A stretch of 64,000 nucleotides of DNA. Source: Streptomyces sp. NBC_00237. GTDB lineage: Bacteria; Actinomycetota; Actinomycetes; Streptomycetales; Streptomycetaceae. Both the position numbers and the translations under genes were made by a program. The notes under the pieces are model-generated. The model saw nothing but the letters and a program-made list of their open reading frames with translations, was not told the origin of the DNA and did no database searches. The stretch covers positions 2,040,501 through 2,104,500 of the forward strand of contig NZ_JAPEMT010000001.1 in NCBI RefSeq assembly GCF_026342435.1, read 5' to 3'. Shown piece by piece: positions 33,010-49,255 of this stretch. Position 1 is the first letter of the stretch. Every line of letters starts with the position of its first letter.

Positions 33010-33035
33010 AGGTACTACTTATTTACTACTTATTG
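33010..33035 (-). promoter_or_regulatory. AT-rich direct repeat between malR and the PAP2 gene
   Basis: On the minus strand TAAGTAGTAAATAAGTAGTA is a direct repeat of TAAGTAGTA at 11-bp period, starting at the malR stop codon itself. It is strikingly AT-rich for this genome. It is upstream of the PAP2 gene, where it could be a regulator site or promoter, and it supplies several extra stop codons after malR. Confidence 0.4.
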
Positions 33036-34049
33036 CCGGGGGCCGGAGGCCGTGGAGCCCCGCACCACCAGCTCCGGCATGAACACGAATTCGCTGTGCG
33101 GCGCGGGCGTCCCGCCGACCTCTTCGAGGAGGGCCCGCACGGCCGCCTGGCCCATCGCCGTCACCGGTTTGCGGATGGTCGTCAGCGGCGGATCGGTGAA
33201 CGCTATGAGCGGCGAGTCGTCGAACCCGACCACCGACACGTCCTTCGGCACGTCGAGGCCCAGCCGCCTGGCCGCCCGTATCGCACCGAGCGCCATCATG
33301 TCGCTCGCGCACACGATCGCCGTGCAGCCCCGCTCGATGAGCGCGGAGGCGGCCGCCTGGCCGCCCTCCAGGGTGTACAGCGAGTGCTGGACGAGCTCCT
33401 CGGTCCCCTCCGACGTCAGCCCGAGGCGCTCCTGCATGCTGGCCCGGAAGCCCTCGATCTTGCGCAGTACGGGCACGAACCGCTTCGGCCCGACCGCGAG
33501 CCCGATCCGGGTGTGCCCGAGCGCCGCGAGGTGCGTGACCGCGAGGCGCATCGCCGCCCGGTCGTCGGGCGAGATGAAGGGGGCCTGCACCTTCGGCGAG
33601 AAGCCGTCGACCAGGACGAAGGGAACGTTCTGGGCGCGCAGCTGCTCGTACCGCTGCATGTCGGCGGTGGTGTCGGCGTGCAGCCCGGAGACGAAGATGA
33701 TCCCCGCGACGCCCCGCGCCACCAGCATCTCCGTCAGCTCGTCCTCGGTGGAGCCGCCGGGGGTCTGGGTGGCGAGCACCGGGGTGTAGCCCTGGCGGGT
33801 CAGCGCCTGCCCTATCACCTGGGCGAGCGCCGGGAAGATGGGGTTTTCCAGTTCGGGGGTTATCAGCCCGACGAGGCCCGCGCTGAGCCGGCGCAGCCGG
33901 ACCGGGCGCTCGTACCCGAGGACGTCGAGTGCGGCGAGTACGGATTCGCGGGTGCCCGAGGCAACACCGGGCTTGCCGTTCAGGACCCGGCTGACCGTCG
34001 CTTCGCTGACTCCCGCCTGGGCTGCGATGTCGGAGAGCCGCGCGGTCAT
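33030..34049 (-). CDS. malR: Maltose-operon repressor, LacI family
   Basis: 339 residues. The N-terminal HTH (LSDIAAQAGVSEATVSRVLNG, about 5-25) and hinge helix are followed by a periplasmic-binding-like sugar domain ending in PELVVRGSTA. It lies upstream of, and divergent from, malEFG, as in other Streptomyces, where MalR represses maltose uptake and amylase genes until maltodextrins appear. Its likely sites are the CTGCAAG/CTTGCAG repeats upstream of malE, the two amylase genes and the small secreted gene. A candidate -10 (TAGGGT) lies about 72 nt before the start. It closely resembles the second LacI protein at 40149. Confidence 0.93.
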   Translation of the reverse strand: MTARLSDIAAQAGVSEATVSRVLNGKPGVASGTRESVLAALDVLGYERPVRLRRLSAGLVGLITPELENPIFPALAQVIGQALTRQGYTPVLATQTPGGSTEDELTEMLVARGVAGIIFVSGLHADTTADMQRYEQLRAQNVPFVLVDGFSPKVQAPFISPDDRAAMRLAVTHLAALGHTRIGLAVGPKRFVPVLRKIEGFRASMQERLGLTSEGTEELVQHSLYTLEGGQAAASALIERGCTAIVCASDMMALGAIRAARRLGLDVPKDVSVVGFDDSPLIAFTDPPLTTIRKPVTAMGQAAVRALLEEVGGTPAPHSEFVFMPELVVRGSTASGPRQ

Positions 34050-34253
34050 TCCTGGTGTTCGGCACGATGCCAGGTCCTTGCCTGGGCGCTGTGCCTGCCT
34101 CCTTCGTCGTGTCGGGCAACCCTATACGGCCGTGTCGGCGTGGGGTACCGGTTCCGGCGACTCGGGCCGGGCGGGCGCCCCGCCCGGCCGGGGCCCGGTG
34201 ACCCGCGCAAGCGGAATCCGCTCCACCACTTCCCACGTGATGAAAACTCCTTC

Positions 34254-34290
34254 GCAAGATCTTGCAGGCTCGTGAAACCCCGGCTACGTT
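34254..34290 (+). promoter_or_regulatory. MalR-type operator and promoter of the small secreted gene
   Basis: The perfect 12-bp palindrome GCAAGATCTTGC (34254-34265) overlaps a -35-like TTGCAG (34262-34267). Seventeen bp later comes TACGTT (34285-34290). The TACGTTCCTGG around the -10 is identical in the malE promoter. The 303-bp gap from 34050 to 34352 otherwise holds the divergent malR promoter (TAGGGT at 34121-34126, minus strand). Confidence 0.65.
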
Positions 34291-34352
34291 CCTGGACTTG
34301 ACCGATGTTCGGTGCGCCGGTGACGGCGCACGATGACGGAAGACGGGGAACT

Positions 34353-34688
34353 GTGATCAAGAACGTCAAGCGGGGAGCGGTGGCCGCCGTCGGCGCCCTC
34401 GCCCTCATGGGACTGTCCGCGGCTCCTGCCTCCGCGGCGACCTACAAGGGCCCCTCGGGGTGTGCGGTGAAGACCGGCTACGACTACTGGCAGAACATGT
34501 ACGAGTGGTCGGCGAAGTGTTCCGGGCGCGGGGAGAAGAACTGGCGGGTCACCGTGACCTTCGAGTACCTCACCAGCCCTGGTGTGTACACGAACTACAC
34601 GGTTCCGTGGACCGGCATGGGCGGCTCGCAGCAGGGCGCCAGCACCAACGCCCGCGTGGTGAGCGCCTACGGCTGGCAGCTCAAGTAG
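34353..34688 (+). CDS. Small secreted protein of the mal locus, unknown
   Basis: 111 residues. A Sec signal (basic start, AAVGALALMGLSAAPASA) cleaves after Ala28 and leaves an 83-residue mature protein. It has two Cys (37 and 56, probably one disulfide), many aromatics (YDYWQNMYEW) and alternating beta-strand patterns (NWRVTVTFEYL, YTNYTVPW). I do not recognise it. Size, disulfide and all-beta look recall the tendamistat-type alpha-amylase inhibitors of Streptomyces, but the WRY motif is absent. Start at GTG 34353, after GGGGAA. Its promoter matches the malE promoter, so it is probably MalR-controlled and induced with the amylases. Confidence 0.8.
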   Translation: MIKNVKRGAVAAVGALALMGLSAAPASAATYKGPSGCAVKTGYDYWQNMYEWSAKCSGRGEKNWRVTVTFEYLTSPGVYTNYTVPWTGMGGSQQGASTNARVVSAYGWQLK

Positions 34689-34756
34689 GGGACCCTCTCC
34701 GCGGTCCTTCCTGACAGGTGACAGGGGAGTGCCGCGGCGTTCGGCGCGTGAGGCGC

Positions 34757-34796
34757 GGGGCGGTCCGGTCCGGGACGACCGGGACCGGGCCGCCCC
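34757..34796 (+). terminator. Hairpin after the small secreted gene
   Basis: GGGGCGG (34757-34763) pairs with CCGCCCC (34790-34796), with an inner GGTCC/GGACC pairing, about 70 bp past the stop. It separates the small gene from malEFG, so malE relies on its own promoter. The rest of 34689-35079 holds the malE promoter and leader. Confidence 0.7.
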
Positions 34797-34953
34797 TCTG
34801 TGGTCTGTGGCCCGCGCGGACTGCCGCCCCCGAGGCTGTCGCAGCGTACGGATGGACCGTCGGCCCGAGCCCGCCGATCGGTCCTGTCAAGAGGGTTTTC
34901 GACTACGCCCTGGACACACGGATGTAACGATCCCTTCGTCTTGCTGAAAAAAT

Positions 34954-34992
34954 CTGCAAGCTCTTTCAGTTGGCTTGCAGCCCTGTTACGTT
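34954..34992 (+). promoter_or_regulatory. malE promoter with MalR-type inverted repeat
   Basis: CTGCAAG (34954-34960) and CTTGCAG (34974-34980) form a perfect 7-bp inverted repeat with a 13-bp gap. A -35-like TTTCAG (34964-34969) lies in the gap and TACGTT (34987-34992) follows at 17 bp. A repressor on this site would cover the -35. Confidence 0.75.
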
Positions 34993-35079
34993 CCTGGCAA
35001 CCCGGGCGCCGCGAGGGAGCGGACGGCAGGAGGTGTGGGTTTCACCTCTGCCCTACCGGGCTTCTATGAAGGAGTTCAC

Positions 35080-36354
35080 ATGCGGCGTGGCATAGCGGCC
35101 ACCGCACTGGTGGCGGCACTGGCGCTCTCGGCGACGGCGTGCGGGGGAGGCGGCGGCGAAGGCGGTGCCGCCGACGGACCGGTCACCGTCACGTGGTGGG
35201 ACACCTCGAACGCGACGAACGAGGCGCCGAACTACAAGGCCCTCGTCAAGGAGTTCGAGGCGGCGAACAAGGACATCAAGGTCGAGTACGTCAACGTCCC
35301 CTTCGAGCAGGCGCAGAACAAGTTCCAGACCGCCGCGGGCAGCAAGGGCGCTCCGGACGTCATCCGGGCCGACGTCGGGTGGACCGGGGCCTGGGCGAAG
35401 CAGCAGTTCCTCGCCCCGCTCGACGGCACCGAGGCGCTCGCCAAGGGCGATGACTTCACTCCCGCCCTGCTGGAGCAGGCCAAGTACGCGGGCAAGACGT
35501 ACGGCGTCCCGCTCGTCACCGACAGCCTCGCGCTCATGTGGAACAAGGACCTCCTCAAGAAGGCCGGTTTCGACAAGGCGCCCACCACCTGGGACGAGCT
35601 GAAGAAGGTGTCCAAGGCGGTCGCCGACAAGACCGACGCGGACGGCTTCTGGCTGAACAAGGCCGGCTACTACCAGATGCCGTTCCTCTACGGCGAAGGC
35701 GTCGACCTCATCGACGCGGGCAAGAAGAAGATCACCGTCAACTCCCCCCAGGCCGCGAAGGCCATGGAGACGAGCAAGAGCCTGCTGGCCTCCGACGGCG
35801 TGGCGAAACTCGACGTCTCCGCCGACGCCTACGCCCACATGCAGGACGCCTTCGTCACCGGCAAGGTCGCGATGATCGTCCAGGGGCCGTGGGAACTCAC
35901 GAACATCTACAAGGGCGCGGCGTTCAAGGACGCGGCGAACCTGGGCATCTCCACGGTTCCGGCCGGTTCGACCGGCACCGCTGGCGCCCCGATCGGCGGT
36001 CACAACCTGTCGGTCTACGCCGGTTCCGACGCGAAGCGGCAGAAGGCGGCGCAGAAGTTCGTCGCCTTCATGACGTCCGGCGCGACCCAGGCGAAGATCG
36101 CGCTGAAGAACAGCACCCTGCCCACCCGTACCTCCGCGTACACCGCCGAGGTCACGGCGCTGCCCGGCTTCGCCGAGATGCAGAAGGTGCTCGCGCAGAG
36201 CGGCAAGGCGCGCGGCTCGGACCCGAGTTACAGCTCGCTCTACACGGACTTCGAGACCCAGGTCGCCCAGATCCTCCAGGACAAGGTCTCGGTGCCGCAG
36301 GGCCTGGACAACACCGCCGGTGCCTTCAAGAAGTTGCTGAAGGACTACTCCTGA
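35080..36354 (+). CDS. malE: Maltose/maltodextrin-binding lipoprotein
   Basis: 424 residues. The signal peptide ends in a lipobox (SATAC, Cys21). The mature protein is a family 1 solute-binding protein: VTVTWWDTSNATNEAPNY, KVEYVNVPFEQAQNKFQ, APDVIRADVGWTGAWAKQ and YGVPLVTDSLALMWNKDLL. It is the external receptor for the MalFG importer. AAGGAG lies 5 nt before ATG 35080. It is the first gene of malEFG-aglA-lacI2. A strong hairpin after it should raise its yield over malF. Confidence 0.95.
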   Translation: MRRGIAATALVAALALSATACGGGGGEGGAADGPVTVTWWDTSNATNEAPNYKALVKEFEAANKDIKVEYVNVPFEQAQNKFQTAAGSKGAPDVIRADVGWTGAWAKQQFLAPLDGTEALAKGDDFTPALLEQAKYAGKTYGVPLVTDSLALMWNKDLLKKAGFDKAPTTWDELKKVSKAVADKTDADGFWLNKAGYYQMPFLYGEGVDLIDAGKKKITVNSPQAAKAMETSKSLLASDGVAKLDVSADAYAHMQDAFVTGKVAMIVQGPWELTNIYKGAAFKDAANLGISTVPAGSTGTAGAPIGGHNLSVYAGSDAKRQKAAQKFVAFMTSGATQAKIALKNSTLPTRTSAYTAEVTALPGFAEMQKVLAQSGKARGSDPSYSSLYTDFETQVAQILQDKVSVPQGLDNTAGAFKKLLKDYS

Positions 36355-40152: not shown

Positions 40153-41174
40153 CGTTCTCCGCGCCGGGGAGTGGTGCGCCCACTCCCCGGCTGGCCCACA
40201 TCGCCTCGCAGGCCAAGGTCAGCGAGGCGACGGTGAGCCGTGTCCTGAACGGCAAACCGGGGGTGGCGGACACGACCCGTCAGCGCGTCCTGGCCGCCCT
40301 GGACGTCCTGGGCCACGCCCGGCCCGTACGCCTCAAGCCCCGCGTGACCGACCTGATCGGCCTGGTCACCCCCGAACTCACCAACCCGATCTTCCCCGCC
40401 TTCGCCCAGATCATCGAGCAACAGCTCGCGGGCCGCGGGTACACCCCCATCCTCTGCACCCAGATCCCCGGCGGAGCGACGGAGGACGAACTCGTCGAGC
40501 AACTCGTCGACCGGGGCGTCGGCGGCATCATCTTCCTCTCCGGCCTCCACGCGGACCTCTCCACCGACCCCGCCCGCTACGAAGCCCTCACCGCCGCCCA
40601 CATCCCCTACGTCCTCATCAACGGCTACAACGACCGCATCAGCGCACCCTTCGTCTCCCCCGACGACCACGCCGCGGTCCGCATGGCCGTCACCCACCTC
40701 GCCGACCTCGGCCACTCCCGCATCGGCCTGGCGGTGGGCCCGGTCCGCTACGTCCCCTCCCACCGCAAGCGCGAGGCGTTCATCGAGGCCCTCACGCCGT
40801 CGGCCGAACCGCCCATCCAGCACACCCTGTTCAGCGTCGAGGGCGGACAGGCCGCCGCGGTCGCCCTCCTCGACCAGGGCTGCACGGGAATCATCTGCGG
40901 CAGCGACATGATGGCCCTCGGCGTCGTCCGCGCCGCCCGCGACCGGGGCCTGCGCGTCCCCCAGGACGTCTCCGTCGTCGGCTACGACGACTCCCCCCTG
41001 ATCCCCTTCACCGACCCGCCCCTCACCACCGTCCGCCAGCCGGTCCACGCCATGGCCTCGGCGGCGGTCGGCGCGCTCCTGGAGGAGCTGGGCGGGAACC
41101 CCGTACAACGCACCGAGTACGTCTTCCAGCCGGAGCTGGTGGTACGGGGGTCCACGGCGCACGTACCGGTCTGA
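40149..41174 (+). CDS. Second MalR-like LacI-family regulator
   Basis: 341 residues. HTH LAHIASQAKVSEATVSRVLNG and the whole sugar domain run parallel to MalR; compare GGSTEDELTEMLVARGVAG in MalR with GGATEDELVEQLVDRGVGG here. The start GTG overlaps the aglA stop by 4 nt (GTGA), so it is made with AglA. The recognition helix is nearly the same as MalR, so it could bind the same operators with a different effector, or serve as feedback when aglA is on. This arrangement is not something I recall from described mal operons. Confidence 0.92.
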   Translation: MTFSAPGSGAPTPRLAHIASQAKVSEATVSRVLNGKPGVADTTRQRVLAALDVLGHARPVRLKPRVTDLIGLVTPELTNPIFPAFAQIIEQQLAGRGYTPILCTQIPGGATEDELVEQLVDRGVGGIIFLSGLHADLSTDPARYEALTAAHIPYVLINGYNDRISAPFVSPDDHAAVRMAVTHLADLGHSRIGLAVGPVRYVPSHRKREAFIEALTPSAEPPIQHTLFSVEGGQAAAVALLDQGCTGIICGSDMMALGVVRAARDRGLRVPQDVSVVGYDDSPLIPFTDPPLTTVRQPVHAMASAAVGALLEELGGNPVQRTEYVFQPELVVRGSTAHVPV

Positions 41175-42194: not shown

Positions 42195-42252
42195 TTGACC
42201 ACGTACGGGCCTCCTCATAGCGTCACCTGCAAGAACTTCCCGGTACTTGCAG
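42195..42252 (+). promoter_or_regulatory. Amylase promoter with MalR-type operator
   Basis: TTGACC (42195-42200), 17 bp, TAGCGT (42218-42223) is a near-consensus vegetative promoter. Right after the -10 comes CTGCAAG (42227-42233), a 12-bp gap and CTTGCAG (42246-42252), so a bound repressor would sit on the start site. The promoter at 43776 has the same boxes and spacing. Confidence 0.85.
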
Positions 42253-42347: not shown

Positions 42348-43724
42348 GTGACCCGCAGGCTTCCCCTTGCCCTCGCACTCCTCTCCGCCACCGCGGCCCT
42401 CCTCTCCGCACCCTCCTCCGCGCAGGCGGCTCCGCCCGGCGGCAAGGACGTCACCGCCGTCCTCTTCGAGTGGAGGTTCGCCTCGGTCGCCAAGGCGTGC
42501 ACGGAGCGGCTCGGTCCCGCCGGGTACGGGTACGTCCAGGTGTCCCCGCCGCAGGAGCACATCCAGGGCGGGCAGTGGTGGACCTCGTACCAGCCCGTCA
42601 GCTACAGGATCGCGGGGCGGCTCGGCGACCGGGCCGCCTTCAAGGGCATGGTCGACACGTGCCACGCGGCCGGGGTGAAGGTCGTCGCGGACGCGGTCAT
42701 CAATCACATGGCGGCCGGGGACGGGACCGGAACGGGCGGGTCGGCGTACCGGAAGTACGACTACCCGGGGCTCTACTCCGGCTTCGACCTGGACGACTGC
42801 CGTGCTCAGGTCAACGACTACCGCAACCGCTCGAACGTACAGAACTGCGAGCTGGTGGGCCTCGCCGACCTCGACACGGGGGAGGAGTACGTCCGGGGCC
42901 GGATAGCCGCCTACCTGGATGACCTCCGGTCGCTCGGGGTCGACGGCTTCCGGATCGACGGGGCGAAGCACGTTCCCGCCGCCGACCTCGCCGCCATCAA
43001 GGGGAAGCTGAGCGACCCGGGCGTCTACTGGAAGCAGGAGGCGATCTTCGGGGAGGGCGAGGCGGTCTCCCCGAGCGAGTACCTGGGGACGGGTGACGTC
43101 CAGGAGTTCCGGTACGGGCGCGGGCTCAAGCACGCCTTCCAGGGCGGCAGCCTGGCCTGGCTGAAGAACTTCGGCGAGGGGTGGGGCTTCATGGGGTCCG
43201 GGAAGTCGGCGGTCTTCGTCGACAACCACGACACGGAGCGGGGCGGCGACACCCTCAACTACAAGGCCGGCAGCACCTACACCCTCGCCAATGTCTTCAT
43301 GCTGGCGTGGCCCTACGGTGCGCCGGACGTCCACTCCGGGTACGAGTGGACCGACAAGGACGCGGGCCCGCCCAACGGGGGTCAGGTGAACGCCTGTTAC
43401 TCCGACGGGTGGAAGTGCCAGCACGACTGGCGCGAGATCGCCTCGATGGTGAAGCTGCGCAACACCGCCCAGGGGCAGCCCGTCACCGACTGGTGGGACA
43501 ACGGGGGCAACCAGATCGCCTTCGGCCGGGGCGACAAGGCGTACGTCGTCATCAACCGCGACGGCTCCTCCATGACCCGCACCTTCCAGACCCGGCTCCC
43601 GGGCGGAACCTACTGCGACGTCCAGAGCAACCGCCCGGTGGCCGTGGACGGCGGGGGCCGCTTCACGGCAACTGCCGGACCCGGTACGGCGATTGCCCTG
43701 CACACGGGCGCACGCACCTGTTAG
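42348..43724 (+). CDS. Secreted alpha-amylase, GH13
   Basis: 458 residues. The signal peptide ends SSAQA (cleaved after Ala27). The GH13 motifs are [20 protein letters not shown] (nucleophile Asp, about 205), QEAIFGEGE (acid/base Glu) and [10 protein letters not shown] (Asp, about 293). [13 protein letters not shown] is typical of the actinobacterial/animal-like GH13_32 amylases. There is a C-terminal all-beta domain but no starch-binding CBM20. Start is GTG 42348, with GAAGGAA upstream. The operator upstream predicts MalR control. Confidence 0.95.
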
Positions 43725-43775: not shown

Positions 43776-43834
43776 TTGACCTGCCCCCGGCCCCCTCGTA
43801 GCGTCTCGCGCAAGAACTTTCTGACGTCTTGCAG
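43776..43834 (+). promoter_or_regulatory. Amylopullulanase promoter with MalR-type operator
   Basis: TTGACC (43776-43781), 17 bp, TAGCGT (43799-43804), then CGCAAG (43809-43814), a 13-bp gap and CTTGCAG (43828-43834). The boxes and spacing match the amylase promoter exactly, and GCAAGAACTT is shared after the -10. Confidence 0.85.
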
Positions 43835-43918
43835 CAAGAACATTCAACGGTGGTCCCGGACGTGTCCCGCCCGATCCGGCCCATCCGTACTCCGTACTCC
43901 GTACGAGGAGAGCCGCCC

Positions 43919-46900
43919 GTGATACCCGTCCCCCTGCGAAGAGCCGCCGTCGGCGTCGTGAGTGCGGCCCTCTGCGCCGCACTCGCCCCCGCCGCGCCCG
44001 CGTCCGCCGCACCGAAGCCGCCCACGGCGCCCGCAGCCCCCGCGGCCCCCGCCCCGCCCTCCGACGCCGAGCTGGCCGCCCGGCCCGCCCGGCACGACCT
44101 CACCCGCGACCAGTTCTACTTCGTCCTCCCGGACCGCTTCGCGAACGGCGACCCCAAGAACGACCGGGGCGGCCTCACCGGCTCCCGCCTCGACCACGGC
44201 TTCGACCCCGCCGACAAGGGCTTCTACCAGGGCGGCGACCTCAAGGGCCTGGCCGACCGGCTCGACTACATCAAGGGCCTCGGGACCACCGCCATCTGGC
44301 TGGCCCCGATCTTCAAGAACAAGCCCGTGCAGGGGTCAGGGAAGGACGCCTCCGCCGGGTACCACGGCTACTGGATCACCGACTTCACCCAGGTCGACCC
44401 CCACTTCGGCACCAACGCCGACCTCGAAAGGCTCATCGACAAGGCCCACGCCAAGGGCATGAAGGTCTTCTTCGACGTCATCACCAACCACACCGCCGAC
44501 ACCGTCGACTACGCCGAGAAGAAGTACGGGTACCGGCCGAAGGGTGCGTATCCGTACCTCGACCGGACGGGGCGGCCGTTCGACGACCGGCAGGGAACGC
44601 GCGGCAAGGTCGACCGGGACTCCTTCCCGTACACCCCCGTGCCCCGCGCGGGCGAGCGCAAGGTCCCGGCCTGGCTCAACGACCCTGCCATGTACCACAA
44701 TCGCGGCGATTCCACCTTCGCCGGGGAGAGCGCCGAGTACGGCGACTTCTCCGGCCTCGACGACCTCTGGACCGAGCGGCCCGAAGTCGTCGACGGCATG
44801 GCGGAGATCTACCAGAAGTGGGTCCGCGACTTCGACATCGACGGCTTCCGCATCGACACCGTCAAACACGTCGACATGGACTTCTGGACCCGGTGGGCGA
44901 CCGCCCTCGACGCGTACGCGAAGAAGCAGGGCCGAGACGACTTCTTCCTGTTCGGCGAGATCTACGACTCCAACCCGGCCGCCACCGCCCCGTACGTCAC
45001 CCGTGGCCGCCTCGACGCCACCCTCGACTTCCCCCTCCAGGACGCCCTGCGCTCGTACGCCTCCCAGGGCGGCGGCGCGGACAAGCTCGGCAAGGTCTAC
45101 GGGGCCGACTACCGCTACACCACCGACAAGGCCAACGCGTACGAGCAGGTCGCCTTCACCGGCAACCACGACATGGGCCGCATCGGCACCTTCCTGAAGC
45201 AGGACAACCCGAAGGCCGGTGACGCCGAACTCCTCCGGCGTGCCCGTCTCGCCAACGAGCTGATGTTCTTCGGGCGCGGAAACCCGGTGATCTACTACGG
45301 CGACGAGCAGGGCTTCACCGGCGCGGGCGGCGACAAGGACTCCCGCCAGACCCTCTTCGCCTCCCGCACCCCCGACTACCTCGACGACGACCAGCTCGGC
45401 ACCGACCGCACCCACGCGAGCGACGCCTACGACACCACGCACCCGATCTACCGGTCCATCGCCGAACTGTCCCAGCTCACCAAGGCCCACCCCGCCCTCC
45501 GCGACGGCGTCCAGGAGGAGCGGTACGCGGAAGGCTCCGTGTACGCCTTCTCCCGTACGGACAGCAGGCGCAAGGTCGAGTACGTCGTGGCGACGAACAG
45601 CGCCGCCGAGGCGAAGACCGTCGAGGTCCCCGTCGCCAGTGCGGGCTTCCGTACGATCTACGGCGGCACCGGGGCCGTGACCGCCGCCGACCGGAAGATC
45701 AAGGTCACCGTCCCCGCCCTCTCCAGCCTCGTCCTCCAGGCGGACCGGCCCCTCGGAACGCCCGGTGCCCGGCCCGGAACCACCCTCAGGGCCCCGGCGG
45801 CCGGAGCGACCGGCACCGTCGAGATCGAGGCCGCCCCGACCGGCGGGCAGCTCAACCGGGTCGTCTTCGCCGCACAGGTCGGCAACGGGCCCTGGCGCAC
45901 CCTCGGCTCCGCCGACCACGCGCCGTACAAGGTCACCCAGTACCTCGACGCCACGACGCATGCGGGAACCGCCTTGCGGTACAAGGCAGTCGTGGTGGAC
46001 AGTGCCGGACGCACGGCCAGTGCCCTCGCCGCGTCGACGGCGGGGCAGACGCCCCCGCCCGAGAAGCCGCGCGCCGGAGAGCGTACGTACGCGGTCGTCC
46101 ACTACCGGCGGGCGGACGGCGACTACGACGGCTGGCAGCTGAAGTCCCCTGCCGGGAACGGGGTGTTCAGCGGCCGGGACGCCTACGGTGCCTTCGCCTG
46201 GGTGAAGCTCGCCGAAGGCGCGACCTCCTTCCCCTACACCGTCGAGAAGGACGGAAAGGCGGACGGTCCCGCCCGGACCGTGGACCTCGCCGCGACCGGT
46301 GAGGTGTGGGTCGAGCAGGGCAAGGGCGGCCAGCTGACGAAGGCCCCCGAGGGGACGTATCCGCCGCAGGACAAGACCAAGGCGGTCATCCACTACCAGC
46401 GTCCCGACGGGAACCACGACGGCTGGGGCCTGCACGTCTGGACCGGGGCCAAGGACCCGACGGACTGGGCGAAGCCCGTGCTGCCGGTGCGGAAGGACGC
46501 GTACGGGGCGACGTACGAGGTGCCGCTCGCGGCCGGGGCGACGTCGCTGTCGTACATCCTGCACAAGGGCGACGAGAAGGACCTGCCGACCGACCAGTCC
46601 CTCGACCTCGTGACGTACGGGCACGAGGTGTGGGCGCTCGCCGGGCAGCCCACGTACGTGCTGCCGCAGGCCGGTGGCGCGGGCGCGCTCGACCTGGCCA
46701 AGGCCGAGGCGCAGTGGATCGACCGGGACACCGTGGTGTGGAAGGTCAAGGCGACGGAGGCGACCAGCCAGCAGCTCGTGTACGCACGGGACGGCGGGAT
46801 CAAGGTCGTCGACGGGGCGCTGTCCGACGAGGGGCGGTGGCTGCGGCTGAACGCGGCGGAGCTGAGTGCCGCGCAGAAGGCCAAGTACCCGCACCTGAAG

Positions 46901-49255
46901 GACTATCCGGCGTTCAGCGTGGACGCGCGGGACCGGGATCGGGTGGAGGGTGCGCTGCGCGGGCAGGTCATCGCCACGCAACGGGCCGCGAACGGGGCGC
47001 TGTTGGCGGCGACCGGGGTGCAGATTCCGGGGGTTCTCGACGCGTTCTATGCCGCGAGCGCGGAGAAGGCCGCGCTCGGGCCGGTGTTCCGGGACGGACG
47101 GCCGACGCTGTCCGTGTGGGCGCCGACCGCTCAGGAAGTGGTACTGGACCTGGCCGGGCGGAAGGTCCCGATGCGGCGGGACGCGCGTAGTGGGGTCTGG
47201 TCCGTGCAGGGCGAGCGGGGCTGGGCCGGAAAGCCGTACGTGTACGAGGTGACCGTGTGGGCCCCGAGCGTCCAGAAGGTCGTGCAGAACCGGGTCACCG
47301 ACCCGTACTCGACCGCGCTGACCACGGACTCTGCGCGGAGCCTGGTGGTGGACCTGCGTGATGCGAAGCTCGCCCCCAAGGGGTGGGGCGGGCTGAAGAA
47401 GCCCGCCGCCGTGCCGCTGCGGAACGCGCAGATCCAGGAACTCCACGTACGGGACTTCTCGGTCGAGGACCGGACGGCGAAGCACCCCGGGCAGTACCTC
47501 GCCTTCGCGGACCGCGCATCGAAGGGCTCCCAGCACTTGCGGAAGCTGGCCGAGGCAGGGACGTCGTACGTACATCTGCTGCCCGTCTTCGACATCGGGA
47601 CCATCCCGGAGAGGAAGTCCGAACAGGCCGTTCCCGCTTGTGACGTGACGTCGTATGCGAAGGACTCGGAGGAGCAGCAGGCGTGCGTGGGGAAGGTTGC
47701 GGGGAAGGACGCGTACAACTGGGGGTACGACCCGCTGCACTACACCGTCCCGGAGGGGTCGTACGCGAGTGATCCGGAGGGGACGCGGCGGACGGTCGAG
47801 TTCCGGCAGATGGTGCAGGCGCTCAACGGGAGCGGGCTGCGGACCGTGATGGACGTGGTCTACAACCACACCGTCGCCGCCGGGCAGTCGGACAAGTCGG
47901 TGCTGGACCGGATCGTGCCGGGGTACTACCAGCGGCTGATGGCCGACGGGTCGGTCGCCACGTCGACGTGCTGTGCGAACACCGCGCCCGAGAACGCCAT
48001 GATGGGGAAGCTGGTCGTGGACTCCGTCGTCACCTGGGCGCGGGAGTACAAGGTCGACGGGTTCCGCTTCGACCTGATGGGACACCACCCGAAGGCCAAC
48101 ATCCTCGCGGTGCGCAAGGCGCTGGACGCCCTGACGCTCGCGAAGGACGGCGTCGACGGCAAGGCGATCGTCCTGTACGGGGAAGGGTGGAACTTCGGCG
48201 AGATCGCCGACGACGCGCGCTTCGTGCAGGCCACGCAGAAGAACATGGCGGGGACGGGCGTCGCGACCTTCTCCGACCGGGCGCGGGACGCGGTGCGCGG
48301 CGGTGGGCCCTTCGACGAGGACCCGGGGGTCCAGGGATTCGCCTCGGGGCTGTTCACCGACCCCAACTCCTCGGCGGCCAACGGGAGTCCGGCCGAACAG
48401 CGGTCCCGGCTGCTGCACTACCAGGACCTGCTGAAGGTCGGGCTGAGCGGGAACCTCGCCGGGTACTCCTTCGTGGACAGCGGCGGACGTACGGTCAAGG
48501 GTTCCGAGGTCGACTACAACGGCGCCCCCGCGGGGTACGCGGCGGCGCCCGGGGACGCGCTCGCGTACGCGGACGCGCACGACAACGAGACCCTGTTCGA
48601 CGCGCTGGCCTTCAAGCTGCCGGTGAAGACCTCGGCGGGGGACCGGGCGCGGATGCAGGTGCTGGGGATGGCGACCGCCGCCCTCTCGCAGGGGCCCGCG
48701 CTGTCGCAGGCCGGGAGTGACGTGCTCCGGTCGAAGTCGCTGGACCGCAACTCGTACGACAGCGGGGACTGGTTCAACGCGATCCACTGGGACTGCCGGG
48801 AGGGGAACGGCTTCGGGCGGGGACTGCCGATGGCGGCCGACAACCGCTCCAAGTGGGGCTTCGGAAAGCCGCTGCTGACGGCCGTCTCGGTGGGTTGCCC
48901 GGAGATCGAAGGGGCTTCGGGGGCGTACCGGGACCTGCTGAGGATCCGTACGACGGAGGCGGACTTCGCTCTGGCCACCGCCGGGGAGGTACAGGAACGG
49001 CTGTCCTTCCCGCTGTCGGGCAAGGGGGAGACGCCCGGGGTGGTGACCATGCGGCTCGGGGGGCTGGTGGTGGTGTTCAACGCCACGCCGGGTCCGCAGC
49101 AGCAGGTGGTGGCCGGAGCTTCGGGCACTGCTTACGGACTGCACCCGGTGCAGGCGGGGGGCTCCGACCCCGTGGTCAAGGGTGCCTCCTACGACGCAGC
49201 CTCGGGAACCTTCACCGTCCCGGGCCGGACGGTGGCCGTCTTCAAGGCTCGCTGA
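43919..49255 (+). CDS. Secreted double-catalytic amylopullulanase
   Basis: 1778 residues. A signal peptide (ending PASAA) is followed by a full GH13 amylase domain (about 55-560), with DGFRIDTVKH, FLFGEIYDS and FTGNHDMGR. An Ig-like linker and two CBM41 pullulan/starch-binding modules (about 724-805 and 820-917) follow. A complete pullulanase comes next: N2 and CBM48-like parts, YNWGYDP (about 1266), DGFRFDLMGHH (about 1379), LYGEGWNFGE (about 1418) and ADAHDNETLF (about 1550). A DUF3372-like end completes it. It should cut alpha-1,4 and alpha-1,6 bonds in one chain. GAGGAG lies 8 nt before GTG 43919. I recall a similar bifunctional enzyme at SCO2226. Confidence 0.95.
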   Translation: MIPVPLRRAAVGVVSAALCAALAPAAPASAAPKPPTAPAAPAAPAPPSDAELAARPARHDLTRDQFYFVLPDRFANGDPKNDRGGLTGSRLDHGFDPADKGFYQGGDLKGLADRLDYIKGLGTTAIWLAPIFKNKPVQGSGKDASAGYHGYWITDFTQVDPHFGTNADLERLIDKAHAKGMKVFFDVITNHTADTVDYAEKKYGYRPKGAYPYLDRTGRPFDDRQGTRGKVDRDSFPYTPVPRAGERKVPAWLNDPAMYHNRGDSTFAGESAEYGDFSGLDDLWTERPEVVDGMAEIYQKWVRDFDIDGFRIDTVKHVDMDFWTRWATALDAYAKKQGRDDFFLFGEIYDSNPAATAPYVTRGRLDATLDFPLQDALRSYASQGGGADKLGKVYGADYRYTTDKANAYEQVAFTGNHDMGRIGTFLKQDNPKAGDAELLRRARLANELMFFGRGNPVIYYGDEQGFTGAGGDKDSRQTLFASRTPDYLDDDQLGTDRTHASDAYDTTHPIYRSIAELSQLTKAHPALRDGVQEERYAEGSVYAFSRTDSRRKVEYVVATNSAAEAKTVEVPVASAGFRTIYGGTGAVTAADRKIKVTVPALSSLVLQADRPLGTPGARPGTTLRAPAAGATGTVEIEAAPTGGQLNRVVFAAQVGNGPWRTLGSADHAPYKVTQYLDATTHAGTALRYKAVVVDSAGRTASALAASTAGQTPPPEKPRAGERTYAVVHYRRADGDYDGWQLKSPAGNGVFSGRDAYGAFAWVKLAEGATSFPYTVEKDGKADGPARTVDLAATGEVWVEQGKGGQLTKAPEGTYPPQDKTKAVIHYQRPDGNHDGWGLHVWTGAKDPTDWAKPVLPVRKDAYGATYEVPLAAGATSLSYILHKGDEKDLPTDQSLDLVTYGHEVWALAGQPTYVLPQAGGAGALDLAKAEAQWIDRDTVVWKVKATEATSQQLVYARDGGIKVVDGALSDEGRWLRLNAAELSAAQKAKYPHLKDYPAFSVDARDRDRVEGALRGQVIATQRAANGALLAATGVQIPGVLDAFYAASAEKAALGPVFRDGRPTLSVWAPTAQEVVLDLAGRKVPMRRDARSGVWSVQGERGWAGKPYVYEVTVWAPSVQKVVQNRVTDPYSTALTTDSARSLVVDLRDAKLAPKGWGGLKKPAAVPLRNAQIQELHVRDFSVEDRTAKHPGQYLAFADRASKGSQHLRKLAEAGTSYVHLLPVFDIGTIPERKSEQAVPACDVTSYAKDSEEQQACVGKVAGKDAYNWGYDPLHYTVPEGSYASDPEGTRRTVEFRQMVQALNGSGLRTVMDVVYNHTVAAGQSDKSVLDRIVPGYYQRLMADGSVATSTCCANTAPENAMMGKLVVDSVVTWAREYKVDGFRFDLMGHHPKANILAVRKALDALTLAKDGVDGKAIVLYGEGWNFGEIADDARFVQATQKNMAGTGVATFSDRARDAVRGGGPFDEDPGVQGFASGLFTDPNSSAANGSPAEQRSRLLHYQDLLKVGLSGNLAGYSFVDSGGRTVKGSEVDYNGAPAGYAAAPGDALAYADAHDNETLFDALAFKLPVKTSAGDRARMQVLGMATAALSQGPALSQAGSDVLRSKSLDRNSYDSGDWFNAIHWDCREGNGFGRGLPMAADNRSKWGFGKPLLTAVSVGCPEIEGASGAYRDLLRIRTTEADFALATAGEVQERLSFPLSGKGETPGVVTMRLGGLVVVFNATPGPQQQVVAGASGTAYGLHPVQAGGSDPVVKGASYDAASGTFTVPGRTVAVFKAR

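Follow-up and report, generated by a model that had tools for sequence, protein, structure and literature searches.

The malR-X-malE locus

The window analysed here is a stretch of 64,000 nucleotides from Streptomyces sp. NBC_00237. It contains a maltose locus in which a small gene, which we call X, lies between malR and malE. The genes of the locus, and the parts of X, are as follows.

33030-34049, minus strand: malR, LacI-family repressor gene, divergent from X (Pfam LacI and Peripla_BP_3)
34345-34349, plus strand: GGGGA, possible ribosome-binding stretch of X, read from the sequence
34353-34688, plus strand: gene X, GTG start, stop included, encoding a 111-residue precursor, read from the sequence
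34353-34436, plus strand: Sec-type signal peptide of X, 28 residues, predicted cut after APASA, found by inspection
34437-34685, plus strand: mature X, 83 residues with Cys9 and Cys28, 5 Trp and 8 Tyr, pI 9.2, 9.2 kDa
35080-36354, plus strand: malE, maltodextrin-binding protein (Pfam SBP_bac_1 and SBP_bac_8), named by position and likeness
40182-41171: second LacI-family regulator, in the same cluster, 66% identical to MalR
42348-43724: alpha-amylase gene, with MalR-like sites in 42227-42252
43829-49255 (frame): amylase-pullulanase gene, with MalR-like sites in 43810-43834

The first-pass annotation of this DNA had described X as a gene between malR and malE that encodes a signal peptide and an 83-residue mature part with two cysteines, and both its coordinates and this anatomy are borne out. 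By inspection, the signal peptide comprises the residues KNVKR, a hydrophobic core and an ASA end, with an AXA cut site MIKNVKRGAVAAVGALALMGLSAAPASA, and aromatic residues make up 17% of the mature protein. The GC contents of X at the three codon positions are 0.54/0.55/0.92, resembling those of malR, malE, malF and malG (GC3 of 0.92-0.94). Since its codon-position GC matches that of the neighbouring genes, X is supported as a coding sequence, and what can be read from the nucleotides supports a genuine gene with an export signal. The gene, the operator, the malE-type module and the export signal are all directly visible in the DNA.

The regulator gene next to X, malR, has a match in all 61 same-genus genomes searched (our own included) at E<=1e-80. 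The neighbours named in the first-pass annotation are borne out by Pfam, with LacI for malR and a solute-binding protein for malE. Further along the window, Pfam identifies a GH13 gene, the second LacI regulator, the alpha-amylase and the amylase-pullulanase listed above.

The operator of X and the module it has in common with malE

Upstream of X and of malE we find the following elements.

34254-34265, palindromic: perfect palindrome GCAAGATCTTGC, MalR-type operator of X, from pattern counts and likeness to the published core
34262-34267, plus strand: TTGCAG, putative -35 hexamer overlapping the operator, at a position matching TTTCAG of malE (34964-34969)
34285-34295, plus strand: TACGTTCCTGG at X, putative -10 region, identical to the malE copy
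34956-34997, plus strand: malE operator GCAAGCTCTTTC through TACGTTCCTGG, the module that X resembles, from pattern scan and alignment

PMC5526262 gives CTTGCAG as the core of the MalR site in S. lividans, and describes operator O2 of AcrC as two half-sites 2 bp apart, an arrangement that the X operator has likewise. The right half of the X operator together with its flank reads CTTGCAG (34261-34267), so that the right half-site agrees exactly with this core, while the left agrees at 5 of 7 bases. With at most one mismatch allowed, the window contains 6 instances of GCAAGNNCTTGC where 1.29 are expected; none of 100 shuffles reached 6. The palindrome of mal-type half-sites that had been claimed at X is thus confirmed at 34254-34265, and its pattern is enriched in the window. 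The whole genome of 9.2 Mb has only 3 exact copies of GCAAGNNCTTGC (at X, upstream of one regulator-like gene, and at one seemingly intragenic site), and 24 of the pattern read backwards. The copy upstream of the regulator-like gene is the palindrome GCAAGTGCTTGC, at positions 1501-1512 of locus L132, and the gene downstream of it appears by eye to encode a helix-turn-helix regulator.

The resemblance between X and malE extends beyond the operator. At both genes the layout is an operator (GCAAGATCTTGC or GCAAGCTCTTTC), 19 bases, and then TACGTTCCTGG; the malE copy of the last element starts at 34987, and the offset from the start of the operator is 31 bases in each case. Among 199 same-genus genomes, with ours counted in, 154 contain the pattern GCAAGNNCTTKC-N19-TACGTTC and 0 contain the reversed control. 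Our genome holds two copies of operator-N19-TACGTTC, at X and at malE, and one other genome among the 199 (G170) also has two copies of the module. Local alignment of the regions upstream of X and malE recovers the module together with its left flank (TGATGAAAA versus TGCTGAAAA), with a score of 43 that was equalled by 1 of 500 dinucleotide shuffles; the parts further upstream align no better than shuffles do (370 of 500 as good). Across a wider collection of contigs, the perfect palindrome followed by N19-TACGTTC gave 12 matches, 2 of them actinobacterial and none Streptomyces by title, which we read as chance.

It is important to distinguish the module itself from the role that we assign to it. 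TTGCAG at X and TTTCAG at malE are each followed by 17 bases and then by TACGTT, and TTGCAG-N17-TACGTT could, from its sequence, be the promoter of X, with the operator lying over the -35 hexamer. TACGTTC or TACCTTC near malE is kept in 15 of the 16 relatives that have adjacent malR and malE. Several observations count against this part of the proposal. A strict sigma-70 scan of 34050-35100 found no promoter, with the malE region included in the scan; the TAACGAT element that lies upstream of the malE operator has no counterpart upstream of X in the region compared; and PMC5526262 places the MalR sites of S. lividans downstream of the malE promoter.

The TAACGAT element is found at 34925-34931 of the window. 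In 14 of the 16 relatives (L009-L018, L022, L024, L035 and L037) the malE operator is preceded by TAACGAT or TAACCAT, the TAACCAT variant being that of L035 and L037 and TAACGAT that of the other 12, and the element precedes TACGTTC or TACCTTC by 62 bases wherever both occur. Judged by this pattern, it may be TAACGAT that truly serves as the promoter element of malE. In the window, the MalR-like sites of both amylase genes sit 3' of a promoter-like TTGACC-N17-TAGCGT, unlike the layout that we propose for malE and X. The promoter role of the module common to X and malE is accordingly our own reading, and an unproven one. Of the malE-type -10 region that had been reported at X, the identity of TACGTTCCTGG to the malE copy and the equal spacing stand, and as a -10 it is a candidate.

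With its CTTGCAG half-site and its malE-type operator-TACGTTC module, X resembles the members of the MalR regulon of Streptomyces (malEFG and the amylases). It differs from them as an added gene within the malR-malE gap, and the proposed layout of its control region differs from that of the window's amylase genes, whose sites follow the promoter-like stretch. We consider it likely that X is controlled by MalR and that its product is exported. The earlier suggestion that X is made while starch is being broken down is likewise probable, given the malE-type operator module and the export signal. The regulator itself may be a different one: the second LacI-family protein may share operators with MalR, and it could be this protein, rather than MalR, that binds the X operator.

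The malR-malE gap in relatives

We examined 30 malR loci, comprising our own, 16 with malE adjoining, and 13 without malE within 1.5 kb. The gap between malR and malE measures 1030 bases in the window versus 327-425 bases in all 16 relatives with adjacent genes, none of which has room for X in the gap. At 12 of the 13 loci without nearby malE (L019-L021, L023, L025-L028, L030-L033 and L036, with a wrong frame picked in the thirteenth), the longest adjoining frame is by eye a GH13 glucosidase. Since 13 of the 30 loci have no malE within 1.5 kb, and mostly a glucosidase instead, the gap between malR and malE counts as a variable site.

The comparison bears on the origin of the X operator. Each of the 16 relatives whose malR and malE adjoin has a malR-side operator, GCAARNNYTTGC. 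The X operator may be this old malR-proximal operator after the gain of a TACGTTC, or it may have been copied from the malE region. The former origin is favoured by position, the latter by the alignment of the flanks.

The same comparison raises the question of whether X matters at all. X could be a young or decaying orphan that lacks an important function, or it could lie outside MalR control, its operator being the malR-proximal one that serves malR. Consistent with this account, the malR-proximal operator occurs in 16 of 16 relatives in a gap too short for X; moreover, purifying selection on X is unmeasurable since no homologue was found, and its promoter is unproven. Against it, not one of the 19 malR-proximal sites that these 16 relatives have is accompanied by a TA...T hexamer spaced as at malE, while X has the full TACGTTCCTGG; the left flank of the X operator resembles that of malE; and X retains both an intact secretion signal and a codon-position GC equal to that of its neighbours. 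We regard an unimportant or unregulated X as quite unlikely.

Relatives, fold and possible roles of the X protein

We searched for relatives of X in several collections. Nothing in Pfam or NCBIfam matched at E up to 10, the best match in PHROGs had an E of 0.38, the phmmer matches among PDB sequences all looked like chance (one was to an antibody chain, E 0.0031), and no match was found in plasmids and phages or, by a peptide-pattern scan, in the wider genome contigs. Matches to X, in each case with our own genome included, were obtained in 6 of 100 relatives at E<=0.01, in 19 of 392 same-genus genomes at E<=0.05, which is approximately the number expected by chance, and in 3 of 296 class-level genomes at E<=0.001. 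Frames were read at the matched loci; at L003, L004 and L006, three of the loci matched among the 100 relatives, this reading, for which the mature part alone was used, fell elsewhere than at the original match.

Individual candidates were rejected on inspection. The match at L118 is a 31% alignment that lacks the cysteines and lies inside a 702-residue open frame, and that at L119 was not reproduced by tblastn. L005 has a 121-residue frame that looks secreted, and its likeness to X amounts to just 7 of 14 residues near the first hairpin; we claim no homology.

As far as sequence comparison goes, X is a lineage-restricted orphan with no convincing homologue in the sets searched. Because the genomes searched are samples of larger groups, X may be present in other strains of its species. 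Conservation of the gene beside malR had been put forward as a check, and it fails, since no homologue is convincing and the 16 relatives with adjacent genes have only the short gap. Copies of X scattered away from mal genes, which the first-pass annotation had named as evidence that would tell against it, were also looked for, and none was found in the searched genomes.

Proteins of competition that evolve fast are often small, basic, secreted and without relatives. X fits this description, being small, basic (pI 9.2), secreted, capable of a disulphide, and with no relatives found, and it could serve as a signal or have antimicrobial or antifungal activity, its production coinciding with growth on starch and its target lying outside starch metabolism. 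The malE-like module and the place of X inside the mal locus point instead to a role in starch use, and there is nothing positive for another target, so that we give such a function only a small chance.

In the absence of relatives, the fold of X was modelled by AlphaFold2 from its single sequence. The model of the mature protein has six strands (residues 2-4, 9-16, 21-28, 35-47, 50-61 and 68-75), with a mean pLDDT of 64 and a pTM of 0.54. A model of the precursor (pLDDT 57) places the strands identically, though the two have input in common and are not independent. On the basis of this low-confidence, single-sequence model, X is probably all-beta. Fold searches with the model turned up nothing better than ordinary beta sandwiches. 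With Foldseek, neither the PDB (best E 0.24) nor the viral models yielded a match at E<=0.001; among the latter one row, an uncharacterised phage protein, had a probability of 0.98, a TM of 0.62 and an E of 0.41. The best Z values in VIA searches were 6.0 and 4.7, below the level that the tool regards as meaningful. Tendamistat is absent among the fold matches listed, which carries no weight either way. Thus, of the structural check proposed for mature X, the prediction yielded six strands, and the fold search yielded no significant match.

The middling VIA matches are largely beta-sandwich domains, many of them from glycoside hydrolases, and they fit a reading in which X is a stand-alone binder of starch or maltodextrin under the MalR switch, coating starch or keeping oligosaccharides near the mycelium and so helping the host's amylases. 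The share of aromatic residues, with 5 Trp and 8 Tyr among 83 residues, fits as well. A precedent for patchily distributed small helper proteins is provided by Cgt of Actinoplanes sp. SE50/110, a small, secreted, single-domain CBM20 protein that binds starch, is highly expressed and is linked to maltose. In PMC7275007, Cgt is proposed to coat starch or to retain oligosaccharides near the mycelium, aiding the host's amylases, and single-domain relatives of it are reported in only 17 other species. X is likewise small, secreted and patchy. Unlike Cgt, however, it matches neither CBM20 nor any other carbohydrate-binding module or family in Pfam and NCBIfam at E up to 10, its fold matches fall below the meaningful level, and it is shorter than Cgt (149 residues), whose deletion, according to the same source, had no growth phenotype. 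Taken by itself a binding role is somewhat unlikely, although we find it almost equally likely as the alternative that we favour, namely that X inhibits amylases.

The inhibitor reading draws on the tendamistat family (PF01356), to which the first-pass annotation had likened X. Members of this family fold as a six-stranded beta-sandwich, and their inhibitory triad is WRY. X has in common with tendamistat, Gaim and Scaim its small size, its secretion, its Streptomyces origin and a Cys pair that brackets a predicted early hairpin. In the family alignment the R of WRY lies midway between the first two cysteines, and in the X model strands 9-16 and 21-28 bring Cys9 face to face with Cys28, the turn between them holding W18. 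A hairpin that carries W18 between the two cysteines recalls the PF01356 layout; it is a lead only, because a Trp near the turn is unsurprising in a protein with so many aromatic residues.

Membership in the family is another matter. The PF01356 profile is among those that X failed to match in Pfam at E up to 10, and hhalign of X against it gives a probability of 1.15%, equalled by 8 of 100 shuffles that preserve the cysteines. WRY is absent from X, which has YWQN at the corresponding place; mature X has no second Cys pair, Cys9 and Cys28 being its only cysteines, whereas the family has two pairs; and the first pair is spaced by 19 in X versus 16 in the family. Since the profile, WRY and Cys-pair tests all failed, X is not placed in the tendamistat family, and the earlier likening to tendamistat is unsupported as far as membership goes. 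These results, together with the weak fold model, count against the inhibitor reading.

The family is nonetheless informative with regard to regulation. PF01356 members above the Pfam cut-off occur in 24 of 199 genomes, and we examined the 19 best-scoring loci (L088-L106), all of which show C...[WR]RY...C; the triad is WRY in 18 and RRY in L105, picked with a regular expression that requires [WR]RY. Each stretch compared was 300 bases long and stopped 120 bases short of the codon for the first mature Cys, so that it may include first codons; in L106 it is coding. The 19 stretches contain 36 MalR-type half-sites, compared with a mean of 4.3 and a maximum of 12 in 300 shuffles. Such half-sites lie upstream of 15 of the 19 members, as they do upstream of X, with at least 2 in 9 of the 19 stretches and none in 4. 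The strict form CTTGCA[AG] or its complement occurs 19 times (mean 1.6) and is spread over 10 of the 19 stretches, and control stretches far upstream and far downstream of the genes (the latter without L101) contain 0 and 1 half-sites. These counts should be read with the knowledge that the half-site variants were picked after viewing the sequences, that overlapping half-sites are counted twice (in the shuffles too), and that the PF01356 genes are related to one another. The word MalR is absent from the main text of a genus-wide survey of amylase inhibitors (PMC13240717), and we found no MalR link to tendamistat-type genes described in the literature covered, which included the accessible parts of PMC5526262, PMC7275007 and PMC8234114 and took in few subscription journals. 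Our own genome has no PF01356 match at E<=0.1. Because genes of the tendamistat family carry MalR-type sites, and because this genome is without a PF01356 member, the inhibitor reading gains. The like sites of the amylase and the amylase-pullulanase in the same window also count for it.

We therefore propose, tentatively and as a possibility that we still hold doubtful, that X is an amylase inhibitor exported under the same MalR switch as the maltodextrin importer. When maltodextrin is absent, MalR on GCAAGATCTTGC would block transcription of X, the operator lying over the -35 in our reading. Starch products would cause MalR to leave, upon which X would be transcribed and its product exported through the Sec pathway. 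Beyond the cell X, as a compact, disulphide-stapled, aromatic-rich beta protein, would act in the starch phase, where it would block the alpha-amylases of competitors through the Trp-bearing hairpin closed by Cys9-Cys28; it would in this way do the job of tendamistat with no recognisable kinship to it. In this scheme we infer where the promoter lies, that the repressor binds, that X is induced, that the disulphide forms, and what the fold and the target are.

In its widest form the proposal is that Streptomyces couples the uptake of starch products to the jamming of its rivals' amylases by one MalR switch, and that in this species, which has no tendamistat-type gene, X is an unrelated protein with the same task beside malR, representing a second origin of the bacterial protein amylase inhibitor, under a copied malE control region. 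We think this combination improbable as a whole. If it were true, secreted amylase inhibitors would be part of the bacterial maltose regulon rather than curiosities of secondary metabolism, and the uptake of a sugar and the blocking of others' access to it would form a single programme. The timing of inhibitor production would be explained, new inhibitor scaffolds for amylase control would suggest themselves, and there would be relevance to starch-fed Streptomyces fermentations. Even if X is a starch binder, it would be a new secreted gene recruited to the regulon, in the gap that separates the regulator gene from its principal target.

A distant link between X and tendamistat through proteins on the fringe of PF01356 was considered and rejected, since the hhalign score of X against a fringe profile was equalled by 42 of 100 shuffles, and that against a profile of fringe and family together by 12 of 100. 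The fringe loci themselves (L107-L112, L114 and L115) encode small secreted proteins with the pattern C...N.C...V...C and a weak PF01356 match, and, judging from these sequences, they perhaps form a wider family around tendamistat.
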